Below are positions 3,001-56,051 of a stretch of 64,000 nucleotides of DNA, one piece after another. Numbering within the stretch: position 1 is the stretch's first letter; each line of letters starts with the position of its first letter. The DNA comes from Acanthamoeba castellanii str. Neff. Lineage: Eukaryota; Discosea; Longamoebia; Acanthamoebidae. Made by a program: the position numbers and the translations under genes. The notes beneath the pieces are model-generated. The model was not told the origin of the DNA. It was given only the letters and a program-made list of their open reading frames with translations, and did not search any database. Where the stretch lies: the NCBI RefSeq assembly GCF_000313135.1, contig NW_004457584.1, forward strand, positions 62,001 to 126,000, written 5' to 3'.

Positions 3001-3560
3001 TCGACGACCTGCTGGTGCTGACCAAGCCTGAAAAGGGCGGAGCGGATGCGCCGCGCACCTACGTCCTCGTGAAGGCCTACTCCCTGTCCGGCTACACCGC
3101 GTCGTCCCATTTCGAGCTCGCCTCGTGCGAAGGTGCGTGTGCCCGTGCCCGTGTGCCCGTGTGCGGTGTGTGCGTGTGCGCGTGCGATGGTGTTGACAGC
3201 TGACTGACCGGGTGACGACGGCGTAGTCGAGGAAAAGGAGAAGGAGCGAATCATTTCGCTTGTGCCCATCGAGAAGGAGGGCCGGGTCATCCAGCTCAAG
3301 GCGCACTCGGCGCCCGACCGACAGGTCTGGCTCGACGACGTTTCAAAGTACGATCGTGTCTCGTGTTGTTGCGTTGCGTGTGGTGCACGTGAACAAAGAC
3401 ACACGCAGACACTCATACCACTTCGCCCTCTTCTCTGTGTGTGCGTGTGTCGTGTGTCGTGTGTCGTGTGCGGTGGTGCGTGTGCAGACACATTCAGCAC
3501 GCACTGCAGAGAGTCCTTGGCTCCACTCCCACCCCACCGGCCAACCGCAAAGGCAGCTGA
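1..3560 (+). CDS. RhoGEF (DH-PH domain protein), 5' end outside window
   Basis: Guanine-nucleotide exchange factor for Rho-family GTPases. Nine exons splice in phase: 1-1602, 1688-1891, 2017-2211, 2302-2394, 2484-2597, 2688-2794, 2984-3132, 3227-3347, 3488-3560 (885 residues visible). The first ~500 residues are low complexity: Lys/Glu-rich, then Ser/Pro/Gly-rich, probably disordered. The DH domain starts at about residue 510 (EEFIKTEEKYTQNLDILL) and includes the conserved PIQRLPRYELLL helix in exon 4. The PH domain follows (GYVFLFDDLLVLTK in exon 7; closing helix DRQVWLDDVSK in exon 8). The reading frame is open back to base 1, so the start codon lies upstream. Introns carry simple repeats, including a long GTCGT tract before exon 7. 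The family call is firm; the target GTPase cannot be read from sequence. Confidence 0.93.
2839..2955. repeat. Pentanucleotide (GTCGT)n and GTTGGTC microsatellite in an intron
   Basis: Near-perfect GTCGT pentamers run from about 2839 to 2909, then degrade into GTTGGTC-type units, wholly inside intron 6 of the RhoGEF gene. The same motif recurs in introns near 33.0 kb and 38.9 kb. Confidence 0.9.
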
Positions 3561-31897: not shown

Positions 31898-33999
31898 ATG
31901 TCGCGTGCACCACCGGAGGATGGGACCTCGCTTGCGCCCACGTCCGGTCGTCCCGCAATGGTCCTGCCCAAGCGGGGCGTCAAGGACGTCCTCTCCGGTT
32001 CATTTTCCCTTCATTTCCATTTTTCTCCGTTTGCTAAATTGGTGCAGTCATCCGCTACTCATCTTAATTGATTTTGGATTACACTCACCCCACACTTTGC
32101 TACTACCAAGTTGTGGTTTGTACTCAATTTTATGTGGAATAATTATTAATAAATTATTCTTTGTTTTTTTCTCCTCTCAGGCTGCTTCGCTGGCGTGGTC
32201 GGGACCTGCATTGGCCATCCGCTGGACACTGTGAAAGGTACATCAATGGCCTATCATCCACCAACACGCGCGCGTGCTCGATCTAGCCTAAGCTCTACTC
32301 GTCCCCCAACGCACTGTGCAGTGCGCCTGCAGACCCAGTCGCACTACCGCGGCGCGCTCGACTGCTTCCTCAGCGTGGTCAAGAATGAAGGCGTACGCTC
32401 TCTCTTTCTCCTCGCCACACTCTTGCGAGGCACTGATTGGTCGCTGGTGCGCAGGTGCGAAGCCTGTACCGCGGCATGGGCTCGCCGTTGGTCAGCCTCA
32501 CCATACTCAACATGCTGTACATATTCCTTTTTTTTATTATTATAACACTACTATAACTTTTTATTTCACTAACATATGTGACCCACAGCTCGTTCTCGGT
32601 CTACGGGCAGCTCAAGGTGAAGTTGCAGGAGTGGAACCAGGCCTTTGTGCTGCTGGCCCAGGAGGACCCACGCCTCACCACCACCAACAGCAGCAGCTCT
32701 GACCTGCCTGTTGACCCATCCGGTGCGTCTCTTCTCTTGTGTGTCGTGTCGTGTCGTGTCGTGCGATTGCAGCAAACAAAACACAGAGCAAAAAAAGAGA
32801 AAAAAGAGAGTGGCGCTAGGAAGGAGGAATTGAACCCCTACGCATCTCTGCGTCCATAGCTTTGAAGGCTACGCCCGCCACCAGACGAGCTCATCCCAGC
32901 ATCTTCCAGCTTGCCTCCGCGCCACCTTTTTATCGGGCATTACTTTGCCTCGGTTAAATTATTATGGGTCGAATTCTTTGCATTCCTCCATTTTTACCCC
33001 GCGTGTCGTGTCGTTGGTCGTGTCGTGTCGTGTCGTTGGTCGGGCTGCTGACGTGTAACGGAATGGGCGACGCTACAGGGAGGCTGGCCGGATATCAGTA
33101 TTTTCTTGCCGGGGCGGGGGTCGGGGCGATCGCCACCTTCCTCTCGACGCCGTTCGAAATGGTCAAGGTGCAGCTGCAGCTCGACAACGTGGCACTCAAG
33201 CAGTACGTCTTTCTTCCTCTCACACGAAAGAACGAAAAAGAAAGAACGAAAGAAGACGGACGGCGATGATGGTGATGACGAAAAAGAGAGAAACTGTTTC
33301 TAACCAACTGTGCGATCGCAGATATCGTGGAACATTCCATTGCGCCAAAGAACTGGTCAAGCTCCACGGACCCAAGATTTTGTACAACGGTACGAGAGTT
33401 TCCGCCGCACGCCACGCACGACACGCACGACACGCACAACGCCAGGGGTTGGTGCGTGTTCGCTCGTTTAACTGCGCTCTTCAGGCTTTTCGGTCAACAT
33501 GTTTCGGGAGGTGGTGTTCTGCACGGTCTACTTTGGCTGCTACGAACAGCTCAAGCACGCCCTCAACCAATATTTTGGCCCGTACGACCGCCTTTTTTCC
33601 GCACACACCACACACACCGCACACAACTCTCATTTTATTTGTTTGTTTTATTTATTTGTTTTATTTATTATTTGCAGCACTGCCGACGGGAAAGACCACG
33701 CTCGGGCGATCTTGATTGCTGGCGGCACGTCGGGCGTGGCCGCCGGCTTCGCCAATTTCCCGCTCGACGTGATCAAGGCCAACCTGCAGGGCCAGCCGGT
33801 GACGCGGGCCTTCTACGCCGAGCGCCGCGGCTTCCGCGAGGTGGTGCGGGCCTGCTGGGCGCGAGGCGGCGTGCGCGCCTTCTTCTCGGGCCTCGGGCCG
33901 TCCACCCTTCGATCGGCCTTCGTCAGCTCCACCCGCTTCAGCGCCTACGAGTTCGCCTTCTCCTTCCTCTCTTCGCTTGAAGAAGACGGTCATCGATGA
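31898..33999 (+). CDS. Mitochondrial carrier family (SLC25) protein
   Basis: Nine exons: 31898-31997, 32181-32237, 32322-32392, 32455-32516, 32589-32722, 33079-33202, 33322-33389, 33485-33581, 33678-33999 (344 residues, all phases consistent). Three signature repeats: HPLDTVKVRLQ, TPFEMVKVQLQ and FPLDVIKANLQG, each followed by a G-(V/P/F)-x-(A/S)-(L/I/F)-(Y/F)-x-G loop (VRSLYRG, KILYNG, RAFFSG). It should sit in the inner mitochondrial membrane. The repeats resemble the carnitine/acylcarnitine and basic amino-acid carrier branch, but the substrate is not assigned. A TAG acceptor directly before the ATG hints at an intron in the 5' leader. The fifth intron (32723-33078) contains a selenocysteine tRNA gene on the other strand. 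Confidence 0.93.
32790..32805 (-). terminator. Pol III oligo-T terminator of tRNA-Sec
   Basis: On the minus strand two T runs (T6 at 32805-32800 and T7 at 32796-32790) follow the tRNA 3' end by 8 to 24 bases, as expected for RNA polymerase III termination. Confidence 0.75.
32814..32900 (-). tRNA. Selenocysteine tRNA (anticodon TCA)
   Basis: 87 bases on the minus strand, 5' end at 32900, folded by hand. The acceptor stem is 9 bp (GCTGGGATG with CTTCCTAGC, one T-T mismatch and one G-T pair) and the discriminator base is G. The D arm is long (7 bp, GCTCGTC with GGCGGGC) with a tiny TGGT loop. The anticodon loop CTTCAAA gives TCA at plus positions 32863-32865. The variable arm is long (ACGCA, GAGA loop, TGCGT). 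The T arm is 4 bp with loop TTCAATT. The 9+4 layout, long variable arm, 4-base D loop and TCA anticodon are diagnostic of tRNA-Sec; a suppressor Ser/Leu tRNA would have a 7+5 layout. It lies antisense in an intron of the SLC25 gene. Confidence 0.93.
32927..32933 (-). promoter_or_regulatory. TATA-like element upstream of the tRNA-Sec gene
   Basis: The minus strand reads ATAAAAA at positions -33 to -27 relative to the tRNA 5' end. In animals tRNA-Sec genes use an external TATA box near -30, so the placement is right; I could not identify a PSE-like element further up. Confidence 0.5.
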
Positions 34000-45207: not shown

Positions 45208-48200
45208 TTAAGAGCTGGATGAAGAAGACGATGACGAAGATGAAGAGGAGGACGGGGCCGGAGGCGACTTGATGGTGAAGGAGCCCGAAGTGTTGGCGAG
45301 GGCCAGCATCTGCGACGGGCGCGTGGAGACCACGGCCAGCGTGCCCAGCGCGGTCCACCCAAAGCTATTCTCGCCGTACTCCAGCCGCAGGTCCAGCTCG
45401 CAATCGCCCTGCAGCGCGCGGGAATCACACGAGTGCGTGGTAAGCCGAGTGTGTCGGATGTGTCGTGTGTCGTCGTCGTGTGTGTGTCGTGTGTGTCGTG
45501 TGTGACGTTTACGTACAGCGTCCCTGAGCTCCTTGAGCTTGCTCATGATTGTGGCCTGGCTGATGTGAATCTTGCCCTCCGTACCAAACGAAACCACCTG
45601 CACACACACGACACGACACGCACGATACAACACACGAATGAGCGACACTGGAAGCCGTCGCGGAAAGGTTGTCAGCCGAGGAGGCGGTACTGTGTCGAAG
45701 CGGGTCGAGTCGGCCGGGAAGGTGTCGGGGGTCATGAAGGGCTTGATGTTGAGCGGGTGCATGGTCCACTTGAAGGTGCTGATCAGGCCCGAGCCCACCA
45801 GCTTCTTGAGCAGGCCCCAGAAGCGTTTCCCCTCCAGGTGCAACCGGAAGTCCTTCAGCTCCAGCCCTGCCCGATTCGACCATTCGCCGGGTCAGTGTGT
45901 GCGGTGATGTGTGCGGCGAATTGGCATACCTTTGGGCTTGGTGGCGCGGAGGGAGACGCGAATGCCGTGGCCTTCCACAGGTCCGATCTCCATGGTCACC
46001 GACTCGACCTTCAACTTGTGCTCCAGAAACTGTGCGGTCTGCACTCCATTCAGGCGAACCTCAGCCTCACACCACACACCGCAAACACCGCACACACCGC
46101 ACACACCGCACACACCGCACACCACACACACCGCACACCACACACCGCACACCGCACACCGCACACCACACCGCACACCACACACCACACACCGCACACC
46201 GCACACCGCACACCGCACACCCCACCACACACACCGCACACACTGACGATTACCTTGTCGCCCCAGTTGCGGTCGACGATCTTGTAGCCGGTGAAGAAGA
46301 GGCGGGTGCAGAGGAGCACGGCTGGAATGTAGAGGGCGGTGCTGCCCAGGACCAGGGGCAGCGCCAGTGGCCAGAACATCCAGAGCGGCACCAGCGCCGT
46401 GAGCAGCAGATTGCCCACATTTCCGTTGGCGTAGCACCACCTTTTGGACCCCAAAAGGATGCTTGCGTCAACTCAACAAAGTTCGTGTGTGCCGTGTTCC
46501 GTGTGCTCATGCCATGTGTGTGTGTGTTGTGTTGTGTTGGTGTGTGTTGGTGTGTGTTGGTGTGTGTTGTGTGTGTTGTGTCGTTCTGTGAGAGCTATGC
46601 GAGGGATGTACGTACCTGGTCATGCGCACCAGGAGGCGGTTGTTGCCGCCCAGCGCCTTTTGGAAGACCATCCACAATTTCTGCAAAAACGAAACGAGAA
46701 ACGAAACGAGGACAGTCGATCAGAACAACGCAAGGAAAAAGCGAAAGAGAAAGAACGACGAGGGAAGTGACGCGTACGAGGACGGCGTTGAGCACGGATG
46801 ATGCAATACGGCGCACGACGAGCACCAAAGCGTCGCGCGCTCGGCGCAGCTGGCGAAGAACGAGGCGACACGCCCACGCCACGTGCTCTGCGGTCACCTG
46901 GAAGACCTGTGGGCGCGATCGATACATACGCGGGAAGGGTTCCGCACACACTCGCGTCAGCGCCATTTGCTGATATATCAGGTGGCAAACGGCAGCCGTT
47001 ACCTGCATGGTGAAACGCATCGAGGCACCAGCGGCACTCCGCAGCCTGCGGTAAAGCCAGGCCCACATGACGCCGGGCTGGTACATCGGCACCCACTGGC
47101 GGACTGCGCGCGTGTTGCACTGTTAGTCGCACGACACACACCACACGCACACATATATATATATTTACACACACACACACACACAGGCGTACAGAGTCGG
47201 TTTTGCAGGGAGCAGACGAGAAGTGCGCTCGGGTACGCCAGTAACCAGCCAACCGAGCCGAAGATGAATTGGAGCCACGACAGGTCGGCCCAGTGGGTCT
47301 CCACGTACACGACCCAGACGGCGGAGAGGTAGAGGGCAAGGGCGAGCTGGTAGGCGAGCACGAGGAGATACGAGGCGCCGCTCAGGGCGTGGATCACCAG
47401 CCGCAGCCAATGTGGCGCAATTCCTGTCCGCGTCAACGAACTCGAATCAGCTGCGTGTGTGCGGTGTGTGCGGTGTGTGCGTGTGAGGTGGGGAGAGTAC
47501 GTTGTGGACTCCAAAGCGGCGATCCGAGCGTCGCGGCGACGTAGACCAGATAGACTGCAGAAGAAAAAAAGTTTGTTTAGTGGGCGTCAGAATTGCAGGA
47601 AATAAGAAAATAGCGTGGTTGGCTGGCGTACGTGGCAGGACGAGGAGAGTGAGCAGGTCGTTGATCAACAGACCGACGCACTGCGCCAACCTCACGAGCA
47701 GGTACAGCTCCATGTACCAAAAGGTCTTGTAGCCGCTCCCTGTTATCATTACCACAAACCCAACGTCAGGTCATACTCTGTGTGCAGCCATCGAGATGGA
47801 CCTAAGCGAAGGGGAACGCACATCGTGGGAGAGAGAAGAGGCGGCCGTCGCAAATGGTGGCTGGCAGGACGAACCATCGCAGTGCGATCGCGCGATCGAG
47901 CACCGGCGTCAGGACGTAGCCCGCCAACTTCACCGGCAGCATGATCGTGGCCGGAATGTGCTTCAACGCCAGGAAGAACTCCTGGAATGTAATTTCTGTG
48001 AATAAAATACCTAACAATAATAATAATAATAAAAAATAATAAGCGAACCTGATGGATGACGTAGCGGTAACCGAGCTTGTAGTCGTTGGCGCCCGGGGAG
48101 AGGGCCAATAGAACGCGCTGCTGGTTCTGCCACCCCAGGTGCTTGTAGCGGAAGAGCTGCTTCAGGGTCTTGCACCTCCGCTGGTTCTTGACCACCTGCG

Positions 48201-51200
48201 GCGAGTCCGGCCCCAGGCCGGGCCACCGGCTGTCCGAGAACAGCAGGGTCCGCCACAGCGAATCGTCCTCGGCCAGGCACCACCAGTCACTGCATTCCAC
48301 ACATACGTCAGATTCCCGTGTGCGTGTGCGTGTGCGTGTGCGTGTGCGTGTGCGTGTGCGTGTGCGTGTGCGTGTGCGGTAAGCGACGTGCCTGCAAACG
48401 AGTCCGGCGCCGAGTGCGAGTTGGTCGTAGGTGAGATAGGAGAAGATGCGTAGAAGGACCTCCTGCGGCAGCTCGACCCCGCCGGCGGTCGAGGCGCCAG
48501 ATGGTGTCGGGTGGGCCTTCTTCCGGCGCGCAGCCAGGAGCGAGGCCCAGTAGGCCCGGCCCTTGCGCTGTAGCATTGACGAGAAGCCAGTCTCGGCGTT
48601 GTGTCGCTTGGCCAGCGCCCAGAGGCGGCTGAAGAGAGACGGGACGTGGACGATCAGCACGACGACGCTCAGGATCTGGAGCAGCTGCAGCAAGTCGACG
48701 GCCCAGAAGATGAGCTCGGTGAGCATCACCTCGTGCCAGTGCGACATCTCACCCGCTTCAATCGTGAAGCGGGTCCTCTGTTGAATGAGACCGGTATCAG
48801 TACCACCGCACACGCACACGCAACACACGCACACGCACACGCACACGCTCAAGTTGATGTGCGTACGAGAAGGCGGGAAACGAGCGAGGGAAGACGCCAC
48901 ACGGTGAGAGCGATGACCACAGTAGCAAGGCCGGCCACGAAGTCGGCAGGCAGCATGAGCGCGTGGCCGAGAACGACGCATCGCGCCTCCTTGTCGGTCG
49001 GCGCCTGAGTGCACCACAACGTCCCATTCAGTACTGGCAGAGAGCTGTGTGTAGTGTGTAGTGTGTGTCGTGTATGTGTGTGTGTCGTGTGTCGTGTGTG
49101 CTGTGTGCTGTGTGCTGTGTGCTGTGTGCTGTGTGCTGTGGAGGGGACGAACCTGGCGCATGTGCCGGATGAGAGCCCGAGAGCGCCACACGAACGGGAG
49201 CGTGATCACAAAGAGAGGAATGAAGGGAATGTCCTGCAGCCACGCGACAAACAGCCAGCCGACCTGCGAGCGGACCCACAGGGCGAGGCCCGGCGTGCGC
49301 GCAGCCGACTTCGCACGCATCGTGCGGTAGATCTGCACCAGGCTCGGTATGCGCCACAGCGTTGCAATCATGACCAACACTGTTTTGGCCACGCGCTGTG
49401 TAAGCTCGACAAGACCACTGAGTTGCGATGGTAGTGTGGTAAGCTAAGAGGTAGCGTACCCAGCACCGCGCCGATGTACTCGAGCAGGCCAGCCAGAGCC
49501 GAACGAAGAACGTAGCCGCGCTTCACGCTGTCAGCCATCAACGGCTGCCCCCCCCCCACACCACCACACACCACACACAAGGAGTGGTGAGACCATACAT
49601 CAACAGTGCGTGGGTGAGGCTGGGTACCTGGCCCATGCGCGAGAGGACGCGGGGCAGCCGCCACGGACAGAGCACGCACACGGCGAACGGCACCACGAAC
49701 GGCAAGTCCAGCAGCATCTCGCCCACCTGTTCCACCACCTGCGTCCTGCGCTTCGCGGCCGTGTCGAGATCCTACAGTGTGCGTGCAGTGGGTAGCGTAA
49801 ATATAGAATAAATAATAAATAGGACCATTCAGTGAATACCGCCAAAGGAGGCCCTTGGGTGGGTACCTGGAACAGTCGGCGCAGGAAGAAGGGGAGGCGC
49901 CAGAGCATGAGGGGCGCGACGATCACAAAGGGCAAGTCGAGCGCGAGCCTGCCGAACTCGCTGAACACCACCCGATGGAACGATGTGGGCTGCTGCTGAG
50001 CTGCGCTGGTCTTGGCGGCCACCGCCCTCGTCGCCGCTCTCTCCCTCCTCTTCCGCCGCCTATTGGATTCAGCATTGACTTCGCCACTGACGGCGTCGGC
50101 CGGGGCCTCGGCCGCGCTGGGCTCGGCTGCAGTGGAAGCGACTGCGTCGGGAGCGACGTCGGCCGACGTGGTGCTAGTGGTCCACAGGGCACGCAGCTGT
50201 CGCACGGTGGAGAAGGCGCGCCAGGAAACGAGCAGGACCGCCAGGCACACGGCGGCGGGCAGATCAAAGAGCAGCAGCAGGAACTGCATGGCGATCCCGC
50301 GCCGCTGCGCCCAGTAGTCATCGGTGCGGCGCCACAGACGCAGCACCTCCGCGCCGCGCCAGCCGCACACGATGAGCGGGAGCAGCAGGAGGAGGAAGGG
50401 CACGTCGATCACCAGCAGCGCGAAGTTGTAGAACACCACCGCGTGGCACTGGGCTCCCTGCTTCAGGCTGTACACGTGCGCACCAGACGTCGCCTCTGCG
50501 TGTCGCGTTGTGTCGTGTGTCGTCGTGTGTCGTCGGTGTGTTATGTGATTAGAACAGGAAAGTGTGCTCGACGCGAGAGTCCGGATCAAACCTTTGTAGC
50601 GCTTGTAGGCGTCGCGCAGCTGGACGACGAGGGAGTAGGCGTTCCACACGGTGACGAGGGTGATCAGGCCCACCACGCCAGCCGCCAGGTCAAGCAGTGC
50701 CAGCCGGAATTGCACAAATGCGACGGAGCGCTTGTCGCCATTGCAGGTGCACTGTCGTTGTGCGCGTCAAGAAGGTGAGAGGGTGGTGTAAGATCAGTGA
50801 AAATCATATAATGGTTATCATTGGCCGTCGCTGCATCAGGCTGGCTGGTTGGGTGAGCTTACCTTGCCGAACTGAGTCCAGAGGGAGGGAATGCGCCAGA
50901 AGAAGAGGCCGGTCATGAGCGTCAGCAGGATGAAGGGCAAGTCGATGAGGGTCGCCAGGGTGTGGCGGAAGATTGCCTTGTGCAGGTCGAGTCCCGAGGC
51001 GGTCTGTCAAGGTACGATGTGCGCCACAGAACAGTGACTATGAGGAAACAACACATGGCAGACCGACATGGGCACAGCTCGATCGTACCTTGAGCGACGC
51101 GATGAGGGCGGGTGCGTGCCAAACGCCCAGGAGCGAGAAAAGGCCCAGGACAGCCGCAACCGCATCGAGCAGAGCGCACAGCAGCACTTCCCAACTGGCA

Positions 51201-54200
51201 TTCCTCATTTCTCCCAGACTCTTGGCCTGAGGGCCATAGCACGACAAGGGTGAATGTGTGAGCCCAATAATGGCGAGTTGGCTCAGGCGGAACGAGGGAC
51301 AGATCTACATGGAGAAATTGAGAAACGTACCGCTTTCAATCGGCGGTAGAGCGAGGGGAGACGCCAGAAGGCCACAGCGACCAAAGCCATGGCGGCGAAG
51401 TAGGGCAGATCGAGCACCACCTTCCCAAAGCTGGCAAACACAACCGAGTGGACGCCCAGGAGCTCCTTGCCCTGCACATTTCCATTGAAATGTTAGGAAT
51501 CTACGCTCGCCGAAACAAGAAAGCCCTGAAGAAGACGTACGGCGAGCTTCTGCTTCATGTCAGAGTAGTGCCACACGGTGGCGCGCACGGCGGCGTAGGC
51601 GAGAAGTGCGGGCACGTCGAGGAGGACACATCCTAGAACCTGCATCACCGCGCTCCTCTTCTTTGCCAGCCGCCCGCTGGTGGCGCTATCGGTCGGTGTC
51701 GGCGCGCCGCGTAGGAGTCGCACGAGCGTGGGCAGCCGCCACAGCGTGAGCGCGATGCAGGCAATGGCCAGCAGGTGGGGCGTGTCGAGCAGCAGCACGC
51801 CGACGTTCTTGAACACAGCGGCGTGATAGCGCATGCCGTTCCGCCCGCGCCCGTTGGGACCCGTCATCGGCCGCAGATCCGCGTCGAGCTGCTTCGCATT
51901 CCAGCGAAGCAGGCGGATGAGTAGGTTGCATACGAGGCACGGAATGTCGAGAATGCCGCAGGCGAATTGCTGCAGGCAGGCCTTGCGCGCCGACGCGAGG
52001 CCCTCCTGCGGTGGCGGCTTGGCCTTGCGCAGCCGTGCGATAAGGACCGGCAGGCGCCAGAAGGTCACCACCGTGCCCGCTAGGCAGAGGAAGTACGGCG
52101 TGTCGAGCAGAACCAAGTGAGCACGAGCGAAGATGGCCCGATGGGCTTCGAGGCCCGGCAGCCAGTAGGAGGCGTTGAGTCGGCGGAGGTCGTCGACGAG
52201 GTCGTGCCAGTGCCAGCGCGTAACGAAGACGGCCGCGGCGGCCAACAGGGCCAGCGGGTCGAGGAGCACGCACAGCGCTTGGTCGTAGCACGCCTGTCGC
52301 CTGGGCTGTCGCCACGCCCACGTTCGATTTTGGTTGGCGTCGTCCCGCCGCAGCTGTGCGTGCTGGGTGGCCAGCACGCGCAGGTGGTGACGCAGGGCTG
52401 GCGCGCGCCACAGGGTGACGCCCACGAACGCGACGCAGATCAACGCCGGCAGGTCGCGCACCAGCCGGAGGGTGTGGCGCAGAATGACGGCGTGCGGCTC
52501 CAGCCTGGATTTGTCGCCGAGTCGACGCAGCGCGTGGAGCATGTCGCCCCAGCCCCACACGGTGACCAGCAGGGTCGCGGCGCAGAGCAGGCACGGCAGG
52601 TCGAGCAGCACGCAGGCGGCCTGGTCCACGCACGCCTGCTTCTTGAGCGCGATGTCGTTGGTTGAACGCAGCTGCTTGAGCAGCAGCCAGCTGCGCCACA
52701 GCGTGACGCCGACGAGCAGCATGCAGGCGAGATAGGGCAGCTCGAGCAGGGTGCGGCCCAGATGGTACGCGACCGAGAGGTGGTAGGCCATGTTCTTCTG
52801 CCCGGCCGAGTCACGCCGGAACGCTGGCGCATTCCAGCTCGCGAGGATGACGCCGACGGCGACCAGCGAAGGAATGTCGAGAATGAGGCAGACGAACTGG
52901 TTGCCGCAGATGGCGCGCCGACGGCCCAGCGAGGCGCCGCCGGTCTTGCGCAGCTTCTTGACGAGCCGCGGCAGGCGCCACAGGGTCAGCGCGATCACGA
53001 CCGCCATGCCGATGAAGGGCAGGTCGAAAACGAGCCACAGGAAGTGCTTGATCGCCGAAAGATGCGGCAACCAGGTGCCCAGTTGCTTTTTCGATCTCAT
53101 TTCCTTTTTTAAAATGAAGAAAGATTAGTTTTGCGTGCTAATGATGATGAAGCAGTCACTTAAGTGTTGATGGTGGGATTCGTACCTTGAGCGAGGCGAG
53201 CAGAGACCGAGCGTTCCACTGCGTGATGACGACAACGACAAGGCAGAGGAACGCGGGCACGTCGAGCACGGCGCACAGGAACTGATGCCACACGCACCAG
53301 CGCCACGACTTCGTGCCGGGTGCGGTCGCCGTCTGCCCGAGTGCGTCGCACAGCCGGCCCCAGAAGTAGTACGAGCGGCCCCACAGCGCCAGCGACGTGA
53401 GCAGAGCCATAAACACGAAAGGAATGTCCTTTATCCACTCGAGCGACTCCTCCAGGCAAATGCCACGCCACTGCTCGACACTCGCCTGAGAGAAAAAAAA
53501 TGTTAGCAGTGTGAGCGTCGTAGGTGTGCGTGCGTGCGTGCGTGCGTCACAAGGTGGTATGGTGGGGGAGTACCTTGGCCAGTCTGCTGAGGAATGACGG
53601 CGCCCGCCAGAGCGTGAGCACGAGAGGAACGGTGAGTGCGAGGTGCGGGATATCGATCAGCACGTTGATAGCGGTGGCCACCAGGTTGAGCCGCCGGTTG
53701 ATCTCGCCATTGGCCTAAAGTAAGGAAAGTTGATGGGCGTGGGTACATGAATCCCAAGAATGTGAGTGTGGGACGCGTACGGATTTCCAGAGCTTTCGCA
53801 GTTGCGGCAGACGCCACAAGGTGACCAGCACGATGAGAAGGAAGGGTAGACACGCGTAGTCGAGCGCAGCGTACAACAGCTGCGTCCAGCAGTACTGCAA
53901 ATAGGGGTTGGCCTTCTTGAACGATTCCTTGCTTCGCGCCCAGTGTACGAGCCACGGGATCCTACGGGGCCAATGCCGCCAAGCCACACACGGCCCGACC
54001 AGAGTGAGCATGCGCGGCCCAGGCTGGCCCGCTCAGCCACATCCGGGCGTACGTACCTGACCACGGTGACGGTGACCAGGGCCGTCCCGATGAAGGCGAC
54101 GAGATCGCACTGGGCCGCGACAGTGGCCTTGGCGTACTCGCCCCTGTTAAATGCCGACTGTGAGCCATTCGGGGCACTGTGATGGTCTGGGGAGGAAAGG

Positions 54201-54861
54201 AGACCAAGAAAGTCATACATGTCTACGGCGGGCAAGATCTTCATGGCCGGGAAGAAGAGGCCTTTGATTTGGGTGATGAGCAGAGCTGCAGAGCCGACAG
54301 CAAAAAATAGAGAAGAGGTCAGCATTGATCGATGATCGGAATAGACTCGCTTTCAAAAGAAGAGCGAGGAGCCGGGCGAGAGAGTACAGATGCCCAGCGA
54401 CACGGTGGAGATGATGGCGATGACCTTCCCCTCGTGTTCGATGGCGGCGTGCGTCGCGTAGAGAGCAGCGGCCATCAGCCCCACAGCGAACACGGGGAAG
54501 AGCGTGCAGCCGACCCATCTGCCCACAGCCGCCATCACCACCACACGGTCAGACGTCGCACAAAGCACGTAAGCTGAGGCCCAGCAAGACGGTACCGAGG
54601 TAGCCACAACAGGGCGTGCAGCACCCTCGAACGTGCCAGCACTTGTGGACCCATTGTAGTCTGCTCCACATGTAGAAGGAGTAGAAGGAGAAGAGGTGAA
54701 TAAGGAGTGGCACAGGTGTGGTGGCTGGGACGCACTTGTAGAACGAGGAGGTAGAGCTGAAGGGGTGCGGCCAAGAGGGCCGAAGAGAGGTGGAGGGCCA
54801 CGAGGGCCACCACGTAGGGCAGCCGCAGCAGGCGCAGCACCATCGCCTCCCCCTGCGCCAT
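45208..54861 (-). CDS. Giant polytopic membrane protein with about 25 DxP-W repeats and an internal F-box
   Basis: About 30 exons, start ATG at 54861, stop at 45208, roughly 2,200 residues (estimated). The early junctions were checked: TTMGPQVLARS, then LLWLPRWVGC, then LGISLLITQIKGLFFPA keep phase. From about 53,950 to 48,600 it encodes repeated ~65-residue units, each a hydrophobic helix opened by D-(L/I/V)-P and closed by W. Type A: H-x3-F lead-in, then VFDLPFIGMAVVIALTLWRL. Type B: C-x2-Q-x2-C lead-in, then ILDIPSLVAVGVILASWNAP. In the long exon 51,542-53,098, ten units alternate A/B strictly. An F-box lies at about 48,230-48,485 (LPQEVLLRIFSYLTYDQL, then DDSLWRTLLFSD). More helices and a soluble C-terminal domain with a Ser-run tail follow. 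It may be two genes, but continuous phases and repeats favour one. Function is unknown. Confidence 0.75.
46076..46245. repeat. (ACACCGC)n heptamer repeat in an intron
   Basis: About 170 bases of ACACCGC/ACACC units inside an intron of the giant gene. Confidence 0.9.
48309..48377. repeat. (GTGTGC)n hexamer repeat in the F-box intron
   Basis: Eleven near-perfect hexamers inside the intron that splits the F-box of the giant gene. Confidence 0.9.
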
Positions 54862-55098
54862 TATGATTCAGAAGAGTGATATGTCACCTGCCGCTAGCGA
54901 TTGATTTCTTTCAATGTTTGGTTGTGTGTGGTCATTAGAAGTCTGTTTGCTAGGAGAACTGCCCTGTTCACTTCATCGATTTCCTGAAGCTGGTGGGCGC
55001 CACGTCTTTTCGTCCGGCCGTGGAGCGCCACGCAGGCATTTTATTTCTTATTTATAATCAAGAGTATTTTATTCATTTCTTTTCTGGTTGGGGCGAGC

Positions 55099-56051
55099 AT
55101 GGACGATGAAGAAGCGGCTCTGCTGGCGGCAGCCATCGAGCTCTCTCTTCGTGATACGGGTGGCCCAGCAGAGCAGCCCGATGCTGCCCCAGCTGCACCA
55201 TCTCGTAATTCCCTTATTATGTCAAATCTGATATTATTTTTTTGCTTCGATTTGATTTTCATGTTAACATCACCACAGCAGCGCTACAGGACGCAGGCCT
55301 TGCATCGCTTCTGGCGAGCTTGCAGCAGGCCATGACCCAGCCTTCTCCTGCCCACGAGGGGGCGAAAATGGTACTGTTCTTCTTCTACACGCTTGCGCCA
55401 CGTTGCTGGCTGACGCGAGCGCACTGAAGGTGCTATGCGTGCGACGAGACTTGGCCATGACCACAGGCAAGATCGCTGCCCAGTGCAGCCATGCCACGCT
55501 CGGACTGTACAAGACGATGGTCGCCCATCACTCCCGGTACTGCCCGGATTGCGTTGGGGAGGGGAACAAGCTCTCAGCTGACGTCTCGGTCGTAGGCTGC
55601 TCGAAGAGTGGGAGGACAGCCACTGCCCGAAGATCGCCCTCAAGCTAGACGATGAGAAGCAGATGTACATTCCGGAACACTTGTTGGTATTGTTGTTGTT
55701 TGTATGGTGGCGTAACTACATCCTCTCTTTTAATTGTCTCCAGGCTGGACTTACAGCAAAAGGTACGTCTTGAGGCGGCATGAGCTGTAAGCGACATGAC
55801 TGAAAATCGGTGATGCAATGACCTACCAGGCTGCCATGCTCGGCCTGCCTACGCACATCGTCAGTGACGCCGGCAAGACCCAGATCGCGCGGGGCTCGCG
55901 TACGGTGCTGGCCATTGCAGGTAAGCAAATCGATCCGTTCTCGCTGCACTGTAGTGGTGTGTACCCTAACCTGGCTTTGAACACGCCAAAACGTAACACA
56001 GGCAGAAAGTCGGCCGTGGACAGCGTGACTGGAGAGTTGAAGCTTCTATAG
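55099..56051 (+). CDS. PTRH2: Peptidyl-tRNA hydrolase 2 with N-terminal UIM-like motif
   Basis: Frees tRNA from peptidyl-tRNA (PTH2 family). Exons 55099-55204, 55279-55370, 55430-55536, 55596-55686, then 55744-55762 and two or three more to the stop at 56051. Hallmarks: MVLCVRRDLAMTTGKIAAQC, SHATLGLYKTM, the EEWEDSHCPKIALK strand, GLPTHIVSDAGKTQIARGSR and the family end VDSVTGELKLL. The N-terminus DDEEAALLAAAIELSLRD matches a ubiquitin-interacting motif, which is not part of the catalytic unit. The junction after GLTAK (near 55,763-55,830) does not close in phase with obvious sites, so one small exon boundary is uncertain. The enzyme identity is firm. Confidence 0.9.

Follow-up and report, generated by a model that had tools for sequence, protein, structure and literature searches.

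A predicted membrane array of two alternating repeat units joined to an F-box-like domain in Acanthamoeba castellanii

The window analysed was a stretch of 64,000 nucleotides from Acanthamoeba castellanii str. Neff (contig NW_004457584.1, positions 62,001 to 126,000 of the forward strand), and all coordinates below are positions within it. The minus strand carries one long gene whose product contains an array of hydrophobic units, each built around the residues D-x-P and closed by W, followed by an F-box-like domain, a second hydrophobic block and a soluble domain. Two kinds of unit, termed A and B (b), alternate in the array, and a short third form is termed S. The original prediction had reported a two-flavour membrane repeat on the minus strand at 48,600-54,861, and the repeat was recovered there. 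That interval covers about two thirds of the gene length; the gene runs on to 45,208, and its remaining part, which had been overlooked, encodes the F-box, the membrane tail and the soluble domain. The F-box is the only part of the protein with a known biochemical meaning. At the sensitivity tried the gene is single-copy, and it encodes a giant, predicted polytopic membrane protein, with 36 hydrophobic peaks, belonging to an unnamed eukaryotic family.

Gene model and relatives

The minus strand of 48,600-54,861 was read in all frames, and the gene model was assembled by hand from splice sites, with one donor re-chosen for frame continuity. Relatives were collected in two protein searches, which yielded 16 proteins (P0001-P0016) and, with the window protein, a family of 17. 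The features of the gene are as follows.

45208..54861, minus strand: whole gene, 31 exons, ATG at 54,861, TAA end at 45,208, 2,262 residues (splice model and alignment with Balamuthia P0009)
53943..54861, minus strand: N-terminal hydrophobic block, residues 1-190, with an ALLWLPRW motif present too in P0001 and P0003
48625..53894, minus strand: DxP-W unit array, residues 207-1564, exons 5-18
51541..53103, minus strand: exon 8, residues 392-912, an intronless run of ten units A-b-A-b-A-b-A-b-A-b
51331..51471, minus strand: exon 9, one unit, 141 bp, both ends phase 0
51089..51226, minus strand: exon 10, one unit, 138 bp, both ends phase 0
50863..51003, minus strand: exon 11, one unit, 141 bp, both ends phase 0
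49876..49977, minus strand: short S unit, residues 1279-1312, with a hydrophobic helix 3 residues shorter
48235..48477, minus strand: F-box-like domain (PF12937), residues 1614-1660, interrupted by a GC-AG intron
46290..47981, minus strand: tail hydrophobic block after the F-box, residues 1723-2055, opening with the degenerate unit-like element HIPATIMLPVKLAGY
45277..46059, minus strand: soluble C-terminal domain, residues 2068-2240

Introns in the model were 63 to 194 bases long, and 29 of the 30 had GT-AG borders, the remaining one being intron 18 (GC-AG, donor at 48,391). Window residues 263-2240 aligned with P0009 of Balamuthia mandrillaris at 28% over 2,235 alignment columns (767 bits); exons 6-31 were all represented, exon 6 in part (16 of 47 residues) and exon 27 at 71% identity. 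Because the P0009 record begins within the array, backing for the N-terminal block comes solely from its likeness to P0001 and P0003. Array, F-box and tail lie in one chain both in P0009, a gene prediction, and in P0001, a EukProt transcriptome-assembly open reading frame (ORF) with a Trinity name. The exons were chosen by hand and the model was derived from genomic sequence alone, which leaves room for an artefact joining several short genes or chance hydrophobic frames; such an artefact is nevertheless extremely improbable, given the co-linearity of residues 263-2240 with P0009, the same order of parts in the P0001 transcript-assembly ORF, the consistent splice sites, and the profile controls, which stood at zero (see below).

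Besides Balamuthia (Discosea), the relatives include Pelomyxa schiedti P0012 (Archamoebae), both Amoebozoa, and three proteins recorded as Eukaryota sp. (P0005, P0007 and P0008). P0012 is among the short members of the family, at 1,379 residues. The two Eukaryota sp. strains looked up fall outside any named group in the taxonomy; we take them to be Skoliomonas, and the SAG31 name of P0004 presumably points to a picozoan. In the review PMC12388492, Skoliomonas is grouped with Barthelona in Metamonada.

The repeat unit

A seed profile was built from 21 units of the window only, and an iterated profile was extended from it over the family proteins. The iterated profile gave 28 matches in the spliced model, of which 25 were strong (at least 22 bits) and three weak. 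One of the weak matches lies past the F-box, where it marks the beginning of the tail; this leaves 27 array units ahead of the F-box (25 strong and two weak). The original prediction had given about 25 copies in one protein. At a threshold of at least 8 bits, the seed profile had no match in 7 reversed and 35 locally shuffled proteins, nor did it match any of 17 reversed proteins. All 16 relatives were matched by this window-only profile, with 4 to 30 units each (for P0001-P0016 in order: 30, 19, 6, 11, 8, 10, 7, 8, 24, 12, 10, 8, 4, 7, 5 and 9); among them P0006, P0015 and P0016, weak in the protein search (E 4.3, 0.045 and 3.1), yet carried 10, 5 and 9 units. The pattern D-x-P-x(9-14)-W occurred 18 times in the window protein, whereas 2,000 whole-protein shuffles, a control that loses hydrophobic clustering, gave 0.73 on average and 5 at most. 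Unit matches per family member numbered 8 to 42, some members perhaps being incomplete.

A consensus was drawn from 328 units of the 17 proteins, with percentages calculated as the share of letters present per column; because the profile was iterated on these same proteins, the shares describe what it gathered. Units start with R (62%) or H (38%), soon followed by V, I, L or F, then a polar pair, F (51%) and a hydrophobic position. The core consists of D (93%), I or L, P (58%, two residues after D), hydrophobic residues, and T (46%) or S (21%). About 14 hydrophobic residues separate D-x-P from the closing aromatic position, which is W in 70%, Y in 15% and F in 6% (W/Y/F 91%) and is followed by R (85%) and, two residues past R, by P (44%). 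The D-to-D spacing had a median of 49 residues, so that an A+B pair spans about 100 residues rather than the 130 predicted, and the 27 units before the F-box form about 13 pairs rather than about ten, five of them in exon 8.

Two unit types and a short third form

Strict alternation of two flavours had been predicted for the large exon, and the ten units of exon 8 alternate without exception. The terminal signatures proposed for the two types also held within this exon, where all five A units end WRLP, WRSW or WRAP and all five B units end WN, WG or WH, but not as a general rule, as B units ending WR stand outside it at residues 1183, 1385 and 1488. Both proposed upstream motifs are local: C-x2-Q-x2-C was found in four of the five B units of exon 8, while H-x3-F was present in just two of the five A units. 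The more general distinction lies at the first position, which is H in A units and R or KR in B units.

Similarity between units was greater at lag 2 than at lag 1 in 8 of the 17 proteins (permutation p<0.05), namely the window protein (p 0.0005), P0001, P0004, P0005, P0006, P0008, P0009 and P0011. When the two leading columns were removed, seven of the 17 retained p<0.05, with P0004 moving to 0.0535. Alternation is thus supported in the window protein and seven of the 16 relatives, and the prediction of two alternating flavours in one long protein was borne out, with P0009 and P0001 each being a single chain.

The S unit typically has an H start, an LWRLP end and three hydrophobic-helix residues fewer. 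A unit of this form, followed by a few more before the array ends, is present in the window protein, P0001, P0003, P0009, P0010, P0011, P0012, P0014 and P0016; that of Pelomyxa P0012 shares 47% identity with window 49,855-50,001. Being about one turn shorter, the S unit may not cross the membrane.

Exon pattern

Eleven of the 13 array introns (introns 5-17) are in phase 0 and located 10-11 residues past the conserved W; the two exceptions lie 17 residues past a W and within a unit core, respectively. Under a uniform model this placement has p ~2e-19, although the 10-11 residue target was picked after the data had been seen. Of the array introns 11/13 were in phase 0, a larger share than the 7/17 found for the gene's introns outside the array (Fisher p 0.026). 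Exons 6, 9, 10, 11, 14 and 17 (138-144 bases) each hold a single unit. Phase-0 introns at a fixed distance from W therefore indicate that the array probably grew by copying of one-unit exons, which is the simplest reading of the exon pattern; the ten-unit exon 8 would then reflect later intron loss or the copying of an intronless block. CA-rich microsatellites occur in several introns, and intron 18 (48,320-48,391, inside the F-box) holds a CACACG run.

F-box, tail and C-terminal domain

The spliced F-box scored 49.7 bits with PF12937 (E 3.1e-13, cut-off 24.3) and 20.6 bits with PF00646 (cut-off 20.5); the unspliced stretch scored 33.8 bits. An F-box above the Pfam cut-off was found in 6 of the 17 proteins: the window protein, P0001, P0009 (45.9 bits), P0010 (28.9), P0011 (24.7) and P0016 (27.5). 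P0004 gave a sub-threshold match, and in P0002 a similar stretch is visible by eye. In all seven proteins with a match the F-box comes after the final unit and ahead of the tail block. The scores bear on an alternative in which the protein is a membrane scaffold with no ubiquitin function and the F-box-like segment is degenerate or makes contact with Skp1 only. Some F-box proteins do act outside the Skp1-Cul1-F-box (SCF) complex, and the modest values in P0010, P0011 and P0016 would suit a degenerate segment; the window and Balamuthia F-boxes, at 49.7 and 45.9 bits, lie above the cut-off of 24.3, and the scaffold alternative is considered improbable.

The tail starts with a half-unit and an LP-rich motif resembling LPHTLLLPxKLLGY. 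The soluble C-terminal domain is common to the window protein, P0003, P0009, P0012 and P0014 (20-47% to the window); it had no Pfam match, and the PDB search gave nothing better than E 0.56. A run of about 14 serines closes the protein (45,208-45,260, minus strand). P0013 and P0015, with 8 and 10 unit matches that are mostly of R type, have a C-terminal half unlike the other tails and are possibly a second subfamily. P0002 has 3,030 residues with 31 unit matches, and its last residues (3005-3030) carry a RanBP-type zinc ribbon (PF00641, 28.1 bits, cut-off 27). This class of zinc ribbon binds ubiquitin in some proteins, and its presence in P0002 is a second, weak hint toward ubiquitin.

Comparison with known families

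Pfam-A scans were performed with seven pieces of the window and the 16 relatives, and NCBIfam scans with exon 8 and four relatives. No family above cut-off covered the units in either scan, and sequence searches of the PDB produced no convincing natural relative (designed membrane bundles, TatB at E 0.9, and noise), so the view that the units belong to no named family stands for the libraries searched. The top solved-structure match of the array and unit profiles was TMH4C4 (PDB 6m6z; E 0.005 for A1, 0.055 for A3 and 2.3e-6 for A5); TMH4C4 is a membrane bundle designed de novo, so the match is one of composition and not of descent. In the literature searches made, no description was found of the repeat family, nor of an F-box joined to a multipass or membrane-bound protist protein. 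The repeat family thus appears to be undescribed, and an F-box protein with a membrane array is a variant of the F-box proteins.

F-box proteins, the substrate receptors of SCF (PF12937/PF00646), are resembled in the above-cut-off F-box of the window protein and five relatives. Their usual partners are soluble repeats such as leucine-rich repeats (LRR), WD40 and kelch, whereas here the F-box is paired with a predicted membrane array that has more than 20 units. Doa10/MARCH6 and Hrd1, the polytopic ubiquitin ligases of the endoplasmic reticulum, offer a second likeness, in that ubiquitin machinery would be tethered to a many-helix membrane protein. Those ligases carry their own RING, while no RING model matched in the seven window pieces (E up to 1) or the 16 relatives (E up to 0.5), window exons 20-27 being covered via their counterparts in the relatives only.

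Piezo channels are of similar size and helix number and also have repeated helix units with amphipathic helices. The protein might be a large channel, transporter or force sensor, a Piezo-like blade of helix pairs in which the conserved mid-helix Asp acts on ions or in gating and the F-box controls only the protein's own turnover. Its 2,262 residues and 36 hydrophobic peaks are of the right order, the D is kept in 93% of units, 10 of the 17 members lack an F-box match, and the best sub-threshold Pfam match of exon 8 was to a predicted-transporter family (DUF2162, E 0.23, 11.3 bits vs a cut-off of 34.4). Against this, no Piezo or channel family exceeded the cut-off over the seven window pieces and 16 relatives, no convincing natural relative came from the PDB, the family has F-boxes, and the number of units varies from 8 to 42 matches among members, some of which may be incomplete. 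A channel or sensor of this kind is held to be quite unlikely.

Neighbouring features

A divergently transcribed neighbour at 55,097-56,051 (plus strand) resembles a gene for peptidyl-tRNA hydrolase 2 (PTH2 matches in two pieces, 40.3 and 35.2 bits). Just upstream of this stretch, DDEEAALLAAAIELSLRD resembles a ubiquitin-interacting motif by eye and had no Pfam match. A selenocysteine tRNA (anticodon tca) was called by ARAGORN at 32,815-32,898 (minus strand).

Membrane topology and proposed function

Because the F-box is the only function given by homology, the protein is read as a membrane-held SCF substrate receptor seated in an endomembrane, with the F-box in the cytosol and the array and C-terminal domain holding or selecting membrane clients; this reading is given about an even chance of being correct. 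A unit opens with a polar segment (H in type A, R or KR in type B) and continues as a helix through D-x-P and some 14 hydrophobic residues to W-R; beyond this often come a proline and a short amphipathic helix of basic character. A and B units may pack as hairpins, and the array probably grew by duplication of one-unit phase-0 exons. The F-box, in the loop that follows the final unit, could recruit Skp1-Cul1. The units with their alternation, the exon pattern, and the F-box with its constant position in those relatives that carry one are observed; sidedness, compartment, Skp1 binding and clients are inferred.

An AlphaFold2 model of an A-b-A-b piece (191 residues, 17 alignment rows) had a predicted local distance difference test score (pLDDT) of 74.9, with helices at 7-34, 38-47, 53-85, 98-128, 132-141 and 145-190. 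In the first unit, residues 7-34 form a continuous helix through DLP (pLDDT ~84-85), followed by a short helix. One membrane crossing per unit is favoured because the model draws one long helix per unit through D-x-P. Linkers following H units carried a net charge of +3.2, against +1.9 for those before H units (54 and 52 linkers pooled, p 0.0009). The after-H linkers were more basic in all six proteins with enough data and significantly so in two, the window protein (5.0 vs 2.1, p 0.005) and P0001 (p 0.006). The direction is that expected if the A-to-B linkers were cytosolic, though both classes are positive and the signal is ambiguous. An A unit, recognised by its initial H, precedes the F-box in the window protein, P0001 and P0009, which puts the F-box on the more basic side; all linker classes are basic.

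Several observations weigh against a membrane-held SCF receptor built from alternating single spans. F-box models had no match (E up to 0.5) in 10 of the 17 proteins (P0002, P0003, P0005-P0008 and P0012-P0015), some of which may be incomplete, and SCF recruitment is therefore not the family's common denominator. The lead-in letter of the unit preceding the F-box is K in P0010 and P0016, and R in P0011, so that placement after an A unit holds in three of six proteins only. Alternation had p>=0.05 by the permutation test in 9 of the 17 (P0002, P0003, P0007, P0010 and P0012-P0016). The A-b-A-b model had a predicted template modelling score (pTM) of only 0.42. Across 256 linkers the net charge averaged +3.0, with only 12.5% neutral or negative, and the 14 residues beside W were equally charged whether the linker led into an R unit or into an H or S unit (1.93 vs 1.95), from which it follows that the charge bias rests largely on the type-defining residues. 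From the S unit to the tail, counted partly by eye, there are five units in the window protein, P0001, P0010 and P0016, seven in P0009 and four in P0003, P0011, P0012 and P0014; since unit parity differs between relatives, conserved ends are incompatible with strict alternation all the way through the array. Strict single-span alternation is accordingly doubtful.

The same linkers and parity would fit a monotopic array, in which the units are re-entrant hairpins with D-x-P at the tip, the linkers are all cytosolic, and one leaflet is wedged to shape a membrane or lipid-droplet surface, for which reticulons, caveolin and oleosin provide the comparison. Every linker class is net positive on average, with long K/R-rich insertions in several classes, as in P0009; parity varies among relatives; and the polar ends are alike in all units, with R or H in front and R past W. 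The continuous helix through DLP in the first unit of the AlphaFold2 model does not agree with a re-entrant tip, the A/B alternation is left unexplained, some long linkers are acidic (net -11 and -4 in P0002, -6 in P0006), and reticulon, caveolin and oleosin models had no match in the Pfam scans of the seven window pieces and 16 relatives. A monotopic arrangement is rated fairly unlikely. On topology the observations are divided: the structure model favours a single span, and the basic linkers and variable parity oppose it.

Returning to the membrane-held SCF receptor, the array must serve a central function in its own right, such as anchoring or organising membrane proteins, because 10 of the 17 members have no F-box match, and the link to ubiquitin would have been either gained in some lineages or lost in others.

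Significance

Among soluble proteins, growth of solenoid arrays by exon duplication is well known. It is suggested, tentatively and as a proposal rated fairly unlikely, that the family is an undescribed class of modular membrane protein spread across distant eukaryotes, with about 8-42 exon-copied units in two flavours and a short third form. Such arrays would be an intramembrane counterpart of the LRR and tetratricopeptide repeat (TPR) arrays, with unit number tuned by exon duplication, and in amoebae and others they would be coupled to SCF so that membrane proteins are recognised and degraded. The unit profile makes the family findable. An intramembrane solenoid-like array common to amoebae and distant protists, for which Pfam has no model, would represent a new structural class; should its F-box work, the protein would be a membrane-embedded SCF receptor, linking the large soluble ubiquitin-ligase system directly to the control of membrane proteins.

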